Assembly (NCBI GenBank): GCA_020073615.1
Contig: JAIQEX010000004.1
Span: 1-64,000, forward strand
Direction of reading: 5' to 3'
From: Terriglobia bacterium
GTDB taxonomy: Bacteria; Acidobacteriota; Terriglobia; Bryobacterales; Bryobacteraceae
DNA length: 64,000 bases
Every line of letters starts with the position of its first letter. The stretch's first letter is position 1. Positions 17,298 through 20,928 of the stretch are shown here, piece by piece. The position numbers and the translations under genes are program-made. The notes below the pieces were generated by a model, which saw only the letters and a list, made by a program, of their open reading frames with translations, had not been told where the DNA came from and did no database searches.

Positions 17298-18692
17298 TCA
17301 ATTGGCGTACATGCGAATGATGCGCTCGATGGCGCGGCGGCATACCGCGCAGAAGCCCACTTCGTCGCGCGTGAACATGATGCAGTCCTGCTGCGGGCGG
17401 TAGTAGCCGCGGGCCTCGTACATGGCGCCTTCGAAGGCGCCCACTTTCCCCGCGTTGGGAGGAGCGGCCAGCAGTTGCGTGATGCGCTCGCGCTCCTCGC
17501 GGAACAGCGTTTCCATCACGTCTTCCGGGCGGTGTTGGGCGCGAATCTCATGGCGGCGCTTCTGGATCTCCCGCTCCATCTGCTCGAACGGCAGCTTGGG
17601 CCAGGGCGTCGGCAACCCGACGCCGGGGCTTAGCAGCGGCTTCCACTTGGCGGCCTGCGGATCGGCGGTAACGTTGGGCTCCCAGGGCTCGGGGCGCTCG
17701 GCGGGGCTGCCGTAGGCCACGTCGGAGGTGTAGTATTCGTCCGCCAAGCCGGCGAAGTGGTGGCCGAACTCGTGAACGAACACATAGGGCGTAAAAGCGT
17801 TGTCGGCGGCCACGGTGGCGTACAGGTTGAAGATCCCACCGCCGCCATACTTGCGGTCGTTCACCACGATTTCGATGAATTCATAGGGCGCCGCCGAAGC
17901 GATGCGCCGCAGCCGCCGGTTGTCGAACGACAGGACGTATCGTTCCGACCCGAAAGCATCATAGGAGGCGCCCAGCGGGGAGTGGCGGTACACGCCATCG
18001 GAAGGCCGCGAGACGCCGCTCTCTTCCGCCGGAACATCGATCGCCCATACGTTGAAATCCGCGCGGTGCTCCTTGAAAGGCGGCACGGCGAAAAGGAGCT
18101 GGGCGGTGCGGCGCGCGTCGCGGTGCCACTTCTCCATTTCGGAGGCGGTGTATCCGTCGCCCAACAGCAGGAGGTCGACCTTGTCGCGCGGCGCTCCGCT
18201 CTGGACCACGGGCCAGACGTTCAGCCTGGGCGGCAGGCTGCGGTCGATGGCCGGGTCCGCGGGATCGGCCATCACCGACCAGACATCGTGAAACTCGCCG
18301 CGCGCATCGCGCTTCTGAATGACCACATCCACCGGAGTAGCGGGCGCGGGAAAGCGGACGCTTTCGGAAAAAACGCGGCGTACCTGCTTCGCTTCATCGG
18401 TGGTTTCCCACTCGCCGAAGATGGTGGCGAAGCCGCGCGAATACAGGCGGCGGTGGTTGGCGCGATCCAGCACCTGGAAGCGATACTTGCCGAGATTGGT
18501 GTCGTCGATCCAGCGATCGAGCGGTCCCGGCCAAGCGCCCTCGAGAACCATACCGTCGAGTGCGAACTGCTCCTCGGAGGCGGTCCCGGTGTGCACGTAA
18601 TCGACGCGCAGGGTCCGCGGCGCGGCGGGCTGGGCGGAAGCGGAAGCCACCGCGGCCGCCATCAGCCAAAGATACCGGTTATTTCGATTCAT
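17298..18692 (-). CDS. Secreted M64-family (IgA-peptidase-like) metallopeptidase
   Basis: 464 residues. A signal peptide (residues 1-20, ending A-S-A-Q) is followed by a beta-rich N-terminal domain and the M64 catalytic domain. The zinc motif H-E-F-G-H-H-F-A-G-L-A-D-E fits HExxHxxGxxD, and L-L-L-L-G-D-G-Y and S-F-D-N-R-R-L precede it. The C-terminus has a conserved C-A-V-C pair in G-F-C-A-V-C-R-R-A. Start at the ATG at 18692; a far longer frame without stops runs across the ECF sigma gene on the other strand and is not credible. Confidence 0.9.
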   Translation of the reverse strand: MNRNNRYLWLMAAAVASASAQPAAPRTLRVDYVHTGTASEEQFALDGMVLEGAWPGPLDRWIDDTNLGKYRFQVLDRANHRRLYSRGFATIFGEWETTDEAKQVRRVFSESVRFPAPATPVDVVIQKRDARGEFHDVWSVMADPADPAIDRSLPPRLNVWPVVQSGAPRDKVDLLLLGDGYTASEMEKWHRDARRTAQLLFAVPPFKEHRADFNVWAIDVPAEESGVSRPSDGVYRHSPLGASYDAFGSERYVLSFDNRRLRRIASAAPYEFIEIVVNDRKYGGGGIFNLYATVAADNAFTPYVFVHEFGHHFAGLADEYYTSDVAYGSPAERPEPWEPNVTADPQAAKWKPLLSPGVGLPTPWPKLPFEQMEREIQKRRHEIRAQHRPEDVMETLFREERERITQLLAAPPNAGKVGAFEGAMYEARGYYRPQQDCIMFTRDEVGFCAVCRRAIERIIRMYAN

Positions 18693-18917
18693 ATCGGAGT
18701 CGCATCCCACATGATATCTCCCGGCGGCTTGCCGGCGGTCACGCTGCGTGCGCGGGCTCTCTGATGTGTGGAGTACCTCAACAACTCCGCGTGACGAGCG
18801 CTGGAACTGCCGGTGCGTTCCTGACGCTGCTGCTGCCGTTGATCCGGGAGAAGTGTATCCTTTCGGCCACCGTTTTCGTCCTGTGTACGGGACCGGAGTT
18901 TGGATGGTAAAGTGCCC

Positions 18918-19490
18918 ATGACAGCGGCGGGCGACACAACCGAGGCGGGCGGCCTGTTCACCGCCTACCACGACCGGATCTATCGCTATGTCGCCGGCAT
19001 GGTGCAAGACCCGTCGGAAGCGGAAGATCTCACGCAGGACACATTTCTGCGTGCGTATCGCGGCCGCGAGTCGCTGCGCGATCCCAACGCCGTTCGCGGC
19101 TGGCTGTACCGCATCGCGACGCATGTCTGCCTCGACCGCTTGCGCCAGCGCGTGCCGCAGGTTTCGATCGACGGCGAAGAGGGCGCCCGCCAGGTGGCAT
19201 CGGTCCGTTCGGAATCGCCATCGGCCCTGGAGATTACCGAGCGAGAGGAGACCAGCGCCTGCGTGCAGCGCTGCCTGGATTTTCTTCCCGACAGCTATCG
19301 CGCGGTGATTCTCCTGCATGAGGCGCATTCGCTCACGGCGGCCGAGATAGCCGGCCTTCTGGGCGTGAGCCTGGCCACCGTCAAAATCCGGCTGCATCGC
19401 GCCCGCCGCAAGCTGCAAACCGTGATGGAGATCGGCTGCGCCATCTCCAGCAGCAGCCGCGGCGTGCCGTGCTGCCAGCCCAAGCCCTGA
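18918..19490 (+). CDS. ECF-type RNA polymerase sigma factor
   Basis: 190 residues. Region 2 (about residues 18-75) has the core-binding and -10 recognition pattern ending D-L-T-Q-D-T-F-L-R-A-Y, and region 4 (about 115-165) has the helix-turn-helix L-T-A-A-E-I-A-G-L-L-G-V-S-L-A-T-V-K-I-R-L-H-R-A. The last 20 residues carry three cysteines (G-C-A-I-S and P-C-C-Q), an extension that could act as a metal or redox switch. No anti-sigma gene is adjacent. Start at the ATG at 18918; the frame also opens earlier with TTG. Confidence 0.92.
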   Translation: MTAAGDTTEAGGLFTAYHDRIYRYVAGMVQDPSEAEDLTQDTFLRAYRGRESLRDPNAVRGWLYRIATHVCLDRLRQRVPQVSIDGEEGARQVASVRSESPSALEITEREETSACVQRCLDFLPDSYRAVILLHEAHSLTAAEIAGLLGVSLATVKIRLHRARRKLQTVMEIGCAISSSSRGVPCCQPKP

Positions 19491-19559
19491 GCAGCCGCCG
19501 GTGTATCCCTTTGCTCGTCCGTTTCGTCCTGGTAATGCCTGTTCACGGGGGTCATTACC

Positions 19560-19805
19560 ATGTTTCGAAAGAATGTCGGCGGCGCGGACCGGGCGGTGCG
19601 CCTGGTGCTGGGCCTGATCCTTTCCCCGGCAGGACTCCTGCTGCTCTCGGCAAAGCACAGCTACGGTCTGATCGTCCTGATTGCCGGCCTGGCCGGGCTG
19701 TTCACTGCCCTGACGGGGTTCTGCGGGTTGTACCTGCCATTCCGCTTTTCGACAGCACGAAGGGAGAAGGTAGGACAGCCGGTGTCCCCCTTTCGCAGCG
19801 CCTGA
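19560..19805 (+). CDS. DUF2892 inner-membrane protein
   Basis: 81 residues with two hydrophobic helices and the DUF2892 opening F-R-K-N-V-G-G-A-D-R-A-V-R-L-V-L-G. The loop G-F-C-G-L-Y keeps a cysteine at a position often conserved. This family is frequent next to rhodaneses and Fe-S or sulfur-metabolism genes. It lies 69 bp after the ECF sigma gene and 22 bp before sufU on the same strand, which suggests one transcription unit. Confidence 0.85.
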   Translation: MFRKNVGGADRAVRLVLGLILSPAGLLLLSAKHSYGLIVLIAGLAGLFTALTGFCGLYLPFRFSTARREKVGQPVSPFRSA

Positions 19806-19827
19806 GGGATCGCCGGAGGCGCCACTT

Positions 19828-20277
19828 ATGCCGGAGTTGGACGAGCTTTACCCCGCCGCCATTCTCGAGCATCACAAACGCCCGCATAACTTCCACGCCA
19901 TGGAAGGGGCCACCTGCCAGGCCGACGGCTACAACCCGTTATGCGGCGACCGGCTGACCTTGTATCTCGATATTCAGGGTGGCGTGATTCGCGATGCCAG
20001 TTTCCGGGGATCGGGCTGTGCCATCTCGCAAGCGTCGGCGTCCATGCTGACCGACGTGGTCCAAGGCAAGACGGCCGGCGAGGCGGAGAACGTTTGCGAT
20101 TCCTTCGGCCGCCTGATCGATCCCGAGACCGGTCCCGGAATTGATCGAGGCTTGCCGAGCCAGTTGGCGGCCTTCGCATCGGTGCGCCGGTTCCCCGCGC
20201 GCATGGCATGTGCCGGCCTGGCGTGGCAGACCCTGCATCTTATGCTGCACTCTGCCGACGACGGATTGGCTCCGTAG
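19828..20277 (+). CDS. sufU: SufU-type iron-sulfur cluster assembly protein
   Basis: 149 residues. Zinc/sulfur ligands of the family are present: C39-G-D41, C64 in G-S-G-C-A-I-S and C128 in R-M-A-C-A-G-L-A-W. SufU accepts sulfur from the cysteine desulfurase SufS. The central region carries the extra stretch that separates SufU from IscU. A ribosome binding site (CGGAGG) precedes the ATG. No sufBCDS genes are in the window; the link to an ECF sigma factor hints at regulated Fe-S supply. Confidence 0.9.
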   Translation: MPELDELYPAAILEHHKRPHNFHAMEGATCQADGYNPLCGDRLTLYLDIQGGVIRDASFRGSGCAISQASASMLTDVVQGKTAGEAENVCDSFGRLIDPETGPGIDRGLPSQLAAFASVRRFPARMACAGLAWQTLHLMLHSADDGLAP

Positions 20278-20315: not shown

Positions 20316-20621
20316 CTATCGTGACAGTAGGGCGCTAACTTCCTCGAGAACGCGCCTGGCGGTCGCCAGCGCCACTATCGCTTCACTTTCGTCCAGTTCG
20401 CGCGGGGCGCACTGGTCCCAGTTCATTCAGGTCGTGCGTCTTGCGGAAGGCCGTATCGTGAAATGTGAGAAACGCCTTGGCGGCTTTCTCACCGCCTGCT
20501 GGCTGTAAAAAACTGACCTGGACGGCTCCTCCGATGCCAGTAAGCGGGCGGCGTTGAGGTCCTTCCGGGCCTGCGCAAGCCAACGCGCAGCCTCGTCACG
20601 CCGCGACTCTTCGGGCGTCAT
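20316..20621 (-). pseudogene. HEPN-domain protein disrupted by two compensating frameshifts
   Basis: The gene starts at the ATG at 20621, overlapping the MNT gene by 26 bp. The first frame gives A-R-K-D-L-N-A-A-R-L-L and S-V-F-Y-S-Q-Q-A-V. From about 20512 the homology continues one frame over as E-K-A-A-K-A-F-L-T-F, then T-H-D-L-N-E-L. From about 20415 it returns to the first frame with Q-C-A-P-R-E-L-D and ends at the TAG at 20316-20318. The pattern fits a one-base loss and a one-base gain in a G-run. With both repaired the protein is a normal-length HEPN domain (about 100 residues). Sequencing error cannot be excluded. Confidence 0.75.
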
Positions 20622-20928
20622 AGAGCACTTTTCCCTCTCGCAGGATCGTTGCCGGCAGGGACGCTTTCACATGAGCGGCGCGCATATCGAAGTCGCTTGC
20701 CGGCCATCGCACTACGTCGGCAGCCGTGCCCAGATCCCATAGAGCGCGATGCACACCTGGCCGGTAAAGAGCCGGAGGCGCATCGTCCGGCAAGACCACG
20801 CAGAAATCGAGATCGCTGTCCGGACCGCCGTCTCCGCGGGCGGCGGAGCCGCACAGATAGATCCGCTCGGGGTGGTAGTAGTCCACCAGACGGCGCGTAA
20901 TCTCCGCGATGGCTTGGTCCTGGGTCAT
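20596..20928 (-). CDS. Minimal nucleotidyltransferase (MNT) domain protein, HEPN partner
   Basis: 110 residues. The nucleotidyltransferase motif G-S-A-A-R-G-D is at residues 27-33 with the catalytic D-S-D-L-D at 37-41. In MntA/HepT-type modules the MNT protein adenylylates and silences the HEPN partner. The frame is intact and overlaps the downstream HEPN gene. It sits between sufU and an ADOP permease gene, both unrelated. Confidence 0.88.
   Translation of the reverse strand: MTQDQAIAEITRRLVDYYHPERIYLCGSAARGDGGPDSDLDFCVVLPDDAPPALYRPGVHRALWDLGTAADVVRWPASDFDMRAAHVKASLPATILREGKVLYDARRVAA

Follow-up and report, generated by a model that had tools for sequence, protein, structure and literature searches.

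We uncovered, in the 64-kb stretch of DNA analyzed here (the window), a compact locus in which an ECF sigma factor with a cysteine-bearing tail is followed by genes for a YgaP-like transmembrane protein and the Fe-S scaffold SufU. We narrowly favor the interpretation that this protein is a one-component ECF sigma factor, which senses a thiophilic metalloid (likeliest As(III)) by means of the cysteines C115, C174 and C186 and drives two predicted promoters, P1 and P2. The conserved cysteines, the promoter sites and the gene context together lend sequence-level support to this one-component reading. Few sigma factors that detect metals through a sensor of their own have been studied (CorE and CorE2). 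If the interpretation is correct, a family that combines just three conserved cysteines with a defined promoter and a setting of arsenic genes would constitute a minimal one-protein sensor-activator, would link metalloid stress to the control of an Fe-S assembly gene, and would point to a function of SigZ that can be put to the test. It would also furnish an otherwise unremarkable locus with a concrete regulon prediction, namely two promoters in a 7-Mb genome.

The mechanism we propose is as follows: a built-in sensor would be formed by C115, where sigma-4 begins, together with C174 and C186, which both lie in the short hairpin predicted at the C-terminus; its three thiols would capture a thiophilic metalloid, As(III) being the likeliest. 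Ligand binding would pin the tail to sigma-4 and enable the factor to engage core RNA polymerase or promoter DNA. Once active, the factor would read TGTATCC-16 nt-CGTC and amplify its own gene via P1, and activation of P2 would yield YgaP_TM and SufU, a local response of sulfur or Fe-S repair. Promoters of this kind would, in relatives, serve genes for AhpD-like CMD and DGC proteins and, once, arsD-arsA. The presence of three near-invariant thiols and the gene context point to As(III) as the ligand; we further infer that the switch is activating upon ligand binding, that C115 lies close to the tail in three dimensions, and that the role of SufU is the repair of sulfur or Fe-S damage. A trithiolate site on the regulator, as in the As(III) repressors of the ArsR family, is presumably the same ligand chemistry as that proposed here. 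The ArsR family has a fold unrelated to that of sigma factors, and its repressors are released by As(III).

The sigma factor locus

The features of the locus are the following:

18854-18880, + strand: promoter P1 (predicted), TGTATCC-16 nt-CGTC, upstream of the sigma gene; matrix score 23.6, best in the window
18918-19490, + strand: ECF sigma factor gene, 190 aa (Pfam and NCBIfam models, alignments)
19260-19262, 19437-19439 and 19473-19475, + strand: codons of C115, C174 and C186, the conserved cysteines of the sigma factor
19437-19481, + strand: cysteine tail, residues 174-188, with a beta-hairpin (174-178/184-188) predicted by two AlphaFold2 runs
19502-19528, + strand: promoter P2 (predicted), TGTATCC-16 nt-CGTC, downstream of the sigma stop codon and ahead of YgaP_TM; matrix score 17.6, second in the window
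19560-19805, + strand: YgaP-like transmembrane protein (YgaP-like_TM, PF11127), 81 aa (Pfam); predicted target
19828-20277, + strand: SufU, 149 aa (TIGR01994); predicted target

The sigma factor passes the model TIGR02937 (91.7 bits, cut-off 42.9) and displays the Pfam domains Sigma70_r2 (4.4e-20) and Sigma70_r4_2 (1e-16), with no Pfam match for a sigma-3 domain. Its top NCBIfam scores, against SigW (PRK09641; 115.7 bits), PRK11922 (113.1 bits) and SigZ (108.5 bits), each lie below the cut-off of the respective model. Its cysteines are found at positions 71, 115, 119, 174, 185 and 186. YgaP-like_TM is, we take it, the family once named DUF2892. SufU exceeds the cut-off of TIGR01994 (132 versus 92.5 bits), and its cysteines 39, 64 and 128, which are embedded in NPLCGD, SGCAIS and MACAGLAW, presumably correspond to the canonical ligand positions. 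Thus, a preliminary description of the locus as a cluster of an ECF sigma factor, a small membrane protein and an Fe-S scaffold is borne out by these models (Pfam, TIGR01994), as are its further statements that the sigma factor has three cysteines in its last 20 residues (C174, C185 and C186) and no anti-sigma partner: an anti-sigma domain was not found in the four neighboring proteins scanned (the M64 peptidase, YgaP_TM, SufU and the nucleotidyltransferase).

The M64 (IgA) peptidase gene (17298-18692, - strand) is divergent from the sigma gene, with the same presence and orientation in the related locus L009. On the other side, a gene for an MntA-like nucleotidyltransferase (20383-20621, - strand; 33.8 bits against a cut-off of 60) adjoins a HEPN-like ORF recognized by eye (20596-20928, - strand), which is apparently broken by a frame change; the two seem to be a decayed HEPN/MNT pair.

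Conserved cysteines in a sporadic family

At least ten other proteins align with the window's sigma factor through the tail among the 80 loci retained from a bacterial genome scan. A profile (A1) built from these ten and the window's protein was run on 297 genomes of the window's phylum, on groups of 345, 250 and 246 genomes, and on a draw of 247 genomes that overlaps the 345-genome group, with each group outside the window's phylum including its seed genome. These samples are draws rather than censuses, and just the best few candidates per genome (mostly 8-13) were scored. Within the window's phylum, nine of the 297 genomes match the profile through the tail at >150 bits, with a broken copy in one further genome (G245); the next-ranked matches end before the tail and score at most 143 bits. 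In the other groups, matches at E ≤1e-43 came from 16 of 345, 16 of 250, two of 246 and 12 of 247 genomes when the seeds are counted in. True family members are therefore sporadic across genomes. When plasmids were searched by tblastn with the L016 sigma factor, the best 25 of 2370 records were ECFs with at most 35% identity, and the matches listed from a PDB search were ordinary ECFs matching just to about the end of sigma-4.

Some genomes contribute more than one of the 55 family loci (L013/L202, L016/L203, L186/L187 and L009/L133), the pair L016/L203 being two copies in Sporomusa silvacetica; the set also contains the near-copies L174/L177, the broken copy L132, and L133, which a contig end truncates. 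When 54 members were aligned (all but L132, with the window's protein included), C115, located where sigma-4 begins, and C174 are cysteines in all 54, and C186 in 51, the exceptions being two proteins with G (L130 and L131) and one cut by a contig end. Generic ECFs in a joint alignment have a cysteine at each of these positions in 0 of 23 rows, versus 11 of 11 family rows. The tail conforms roughly to the consensus C-x-F-x2-D-E-x-N-x-L-x-C-[ED]-P-K. As aligned, C115, C174 and C186 are conserved across phyla, and with counts of 54, 54 and 51 in 54 rows chance was rejected as the origin of the tail. C185 is a cysteine in just three of the 54 members, pointing to a lineage-specific residue, and a general importance for it was rejected. 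Hence, the tail triad of the preliminary description survives for C174 and C186 and fails for C185, and C115 had escaped it.

The hairpin recurs in two AlphaFold2 runs with different alignments, with pTM values of just 0.43 and 0.62 and pLDDT of 72-79 in the last two ten-residue blocks. Because of the predicted hairpin register, C174 and C186 would lie near each other on the same face. In an unrooted tree, the generic ECFs fall on one side of a branch (support 100/98) and L191 groups with the window's clade (98/81).

In its logic of one-component sensing, the window's sigma factor resembles CorE, the closest known system. According to the consulted portions of PMC3107203 and PMC8999054, CorE and CorE2 of Myxococcus xanthus (formerly ECF44, now ECF238) are copper- and Cd/Zn-responsive ECF sigma factors that control metal-stress genes, and CorE has a 38-residue Cys-rich C-terminal domain with four invariant cysteines (C181, C184, C192 and C194) and a CXC in its linker. 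Set against that description in PMC3107203, the tail in the window's protein is shorter (about 16 residues) and its two conserved cysteines, in place of four, are spaced as C-x11-C, with one further cysteine at the start of sigma-4; there is no CXC in the window's protein, the single C115 being conserved in that region, and the gene context is one of arsenic and sulfur without copper. A linked anti-sigma factor is lacking in CorE and likewise among the four neighbor proteins scanned here. In the consulted portion of PMC8999054, ECF41 sigma factors also combine a C-terminal extension with the lack of an anti-sigma factor, as in the window's sigma factor, but their extension is a SnoaL-like domain. 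Among the titles and abstract beginnings surveyed, none announced a sigma factor that senses arsenic; the family may already bear a group number in the 2021 ECF classification (Casas-Pastor et al. 2021).

A promoter motif and its predicted regulon

A cross-phylum promoter motif, TGTA[A/T]CC-16 nt-CGTC, occurs at loci of relatives. Its version TGTAACC-16 nt-CGTC was found upstream in seven of 11 loci (L192-L201 and L132), whereas five shuffles gave at most three; with one mismatch allowed, the motif is present in many further loci and twice in the window. A matrix trained on 11 sites of nine distant loci, namely eight of the L192-L201 group and L132, which comes from a distant genome of the window's own phylum, was applied to both strands of the 64-kb window. 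Here the sites at 18854 (P1; 23.6) and 19502 (P2; 17.6) lead, with the third site scoring just 10.8, and both P1 and P2 are present in L009. Sites scoring at least 15 anywhere in the locus occur in 32 of 46 non-training family loci versus six of 70 control ECF loci, a contrast that narrows at a threshold of 10 (38 of 46 versus 31 of 70). Some unrelated ECF loci have high scores (L037, 25.7; L071, 22.0; L078, 21.9), and therefore similar promoters exist elsewhere.

Across the 6.96-Mb genome, the pattern TGTAWCCNTTN{12,14}CGTC, whose W at position 5 was widened after the relatives' sites were known (the matrix test being the blind one), has just two matches, which are P1 and P2; the reversed pattern has none. 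Given that these two are the sole pattern matches in the genome and the top matrix sites in the window, the sigma factor probably activates its own gene and YgaP-SufU. In a second species of the genus the pattern matches four times (the reversed control once): at the equivalents of P1 and P2, ahead of a CMD-sigma operon, and 177 bp upstream of a gene of the Rrf2 family (superfamily model 116.9 bits, cut-off 73.3), for which the top subfamily models, IscR and the SUF regulator, score below their cut-offs.

Among 80 genomes, the strict motif ([CT]TT, 27 nt) is present in 23 of the 49 with the sigma factor, and hence missing from 26, versus one of the 31 without it, where G081 and G262 (tail without C186) and G245 (broken copy) were taken as sigma-bearing. 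In the sigma-bearing genomes, 21 of the 31 strict matches are no farther than 2.5 kb from the sigma gene, and 12 of these 21 are outside the training loci. The looser pattern has 55 matches in the 49 sigma-bearing genomes (24 of them near the sigma gene) and 16 in the other 31. Upstream footprinting of six acidobacterial sigma genes revealed no common block; in L011, L012 and L013 the matrix site lies farther upstream. Restricted to the Negativicutes group, a dyad search was barely above noise (best 4 of 17, shuffles at most 3). Between P2 and the YgaP_TM start codon there is also an inverted repeat, GGTAATG...CATTACC (19533-19559), which may be due to chance, as one arm differs in L009.

In the window's wider lineage, the site precedes YgaP_TM-SufU in the window and L009, YgaP and sigma in L011 (score 17.0), and YgaP_TM-SufS-sigma in the distant, motif-bearing L130, whose enzyme is SufS-like. 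In L012 it lies before a gene for a 96-aa membrane protein, with YgaP and sigma behind it, and in L013 before such a gene with sigma behind it. In L191 the site is followed by CMD and then by a fragment of a class-V aminotransferase (cysteine-desulfurase family; Pfam), and in L014 (site at 2257) by an OsmC-like protein. Sites remote from the sigma gene lead CMD-arsD-arsA in L260 (ArsD, 125 versus 90 bits; ArsA_ATPase, 312 bits), two CMD genes in L258, DGC genes in L252, L255 and L256 (Pfam), and a gene for a glutaredoxin-domain protein in L254 (Pfam); the remote matches L257 (G361) and L259 (G795) lack a convincing target.

The OsmC-like protein of L014 (2343-3041 of that Planctomycetota contig) has a Cys-rich N-terminal extension, and L124 (2171-3886) codes for a protein kinase with a Cys-rich N-terminal stretch, preceded by a LiaF-TM-like gene (below cut-off) that has a predicted site at 1635; the kinase is a possible target of this type of sigma factor.

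Arsenic and thiol neighborhoods and the nature of the signal

Neighbors were counted over the 55 family loci by ORF clustering and phmmer, with ORF-based gene calls for the fetched loci. They include CMD proteins (34 loci), which are AhpD-like and mostly have a CxxC and a Cys-rich end, as well as DGC (17), ArsR-like (16), ArsM (15), ACR3 (10), ArsC (8), ArsE (8) and ArsP (5) proteins. CMD genes are also neighbors of ECF41 sigma factors. At least one of ArsM, ACR3, ArsE, ArsC and ArsP is encoded in 25 of the 55 family loci, versus one of 70 generic ECF loci (mostly Acidobacteriota; mean length 10.1 kb versus 9.9 kb for the family) and one of 40 preset regions from 13 family-set genomes, eight of them from the class of G358 (Fisher p 1.1e-6 for the latter comparison). 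The arsenic and CMD queries were drawn from family loci, having been chosen for their recurrence there, and hence the query-supplying loci match themselves; dropping the five such loci leaves arsenic markers in 20 of 50. CMD was found in none of the 70 generic ECF loci and one of the 40 preset regions, and curated models confirm examples of ArsM, ACR3 and ArsD.

The five arsenic markers are missing from 30 of the 55 loci, and 17, the window among them, have neither an arsenic marker nor CMD. No such marker was found up to about 6 kb from the window's sigma gene or in L009-L014 (of which L014 spans just 3.3 kb). Consequently, the arsenic reading of the window's locus is carried over from its relatives, and for the window and L009-L014 a thiol or reactive-sulfur signal is a serious rival and Fe-S sensing a lesser one.

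The former would entail a sensor of reactive sulfur, disulfides or peroxide, in which thiol stress drives the cysteines into disulfides or polysulfides, thereby switching the factor, and the regulon (YgaP, SufU, CMD, OsmC and DGC) effects thiol repair. It would account for the CMD genes, many with a CxxC, in 34 of the 55 loci, for the OsmC-like (L014) and glutaredoxin-domain (L254) thiol proteins behind sites, for YgaP_TM among the targets and neighbors and the SufS-like enzyme in L130, and for a window locus that holds sulfur genes and no ars marker. However, it sits poorly with three near-invariant cysteines rather than two, and thiol stress alone would not explain the enrichment of ArsM, ACR3, ArsC and ArsD; overall we regard it as rather unlikely. 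The preliminary description had instead envisaged that the tail senses Fe-S or redox status directly and controls Fe-S assembly in a linked three-gene cluster. The control of an Fe-S assembly gene gains support from the cognate-looking P2 before YgaP-SufU, with YgaP-SufS-sigma in the distant L130, and direct sensing by cysteines, with no anti-sigma gene nearby, is plausible given three such residues conserved across phyla. As for linkage, YgaP_TM is near the sigma gene in six of the 55 loci and SufU in two, and all three genes are together just in two loci, both of the window's genus; SufU was accordingly rejected as a family-wide partner, although promoter sites tie the genes where they are linked.

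What is not supported is Fe-S as the general signal, for the relatives point to arsenic or other thiophilic stress: with arsenic genes in 25 of 55 family loci versus one of 70 and one of 40 in the controls, the general signal is probably not Fe-S. An Fe-S or iron sensor, with the cysteines ligating a cluster and the factor governing Fe-S assembly, could appeal to SufU (behind P2) and possibly the Rrf2 gene of the second species as predicted targets in the window's lineage, to the SufS-like enzyme in the L130 operon, and to the class-V aminotransferase fragment behind a site and CMD gene in L191. Yet beyond the rarity of SufU linkage, clustered cysteine-desulfurase-type ORFs are found in just four of the 55 loci and the broad association of the family is with arsenic genes, and we consider such a sensor improbable. 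We place still less weight on the cysteines being structural, for example as a Zn site joining sigma-4 and the tail, with control left solely to how strongly the factor itself is expressed or to an anti-sigma factor encoded elsewhere: their invariance and the predicted autoregulatory promoter P1 would suit this, but generic ECFs manage without the site, which goes with a thiol or metalloid gene context, and the scanned neighbors include no anti-sigma factor.

The metalloid-sensor reading can be extended to a wider scenario, which we advance tentatively and rate as possible rather than probable: the family would be a cross-phylum group of As(III)-sensing sigma factors needing neither an anti-sigma factor nor ArsR, SigZ would be a metalloid sensor too, and the window's lineage would have been rewired from arsenic detoxification to a sigma-YgaP_TM-SufU regulon for Fe-S and sulfur repair. 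The window's protein is the sole one of the genome's 35 ECF-like matches with E <1e-25 to the SigZ model (TIGR02959), against which its 108.5 bits fall short of the curated cut-off of 168.65; a control search with this model recovers the Bacillus subtilis SigZ. From 119 genomes we obtained 11 SigZ-like loci (L205-L215), six of them over the SigZ cut-off. By regular expressions and eye, the equivalent of C115 is present in ten of the 11 proteins and a CC at the C174 position in all 11, with the difference that eight of the 11 tails end in CxxC. In the unrooted tree all 11 SigZ rows group on a separate branch (100/100), whose placement beside Negativicutes family members is weak (35/72). The promoter motif had no match in the 11 SigZ loci, within a reach of about 1.5 kb on each side. 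DUF2703, which according to the consulted portion of PMC6514093 belongs to an arsenic cluster of Rhodococcus, adjoins the sigma gene in six of the loci (L205-L208, L210 and L211), and ArsM is encoded in L209, an ACR3 fragment in L212 (263 versus 283 bits) and ArsP in L215; these neighbors suggest an arsenic link for SigZ.
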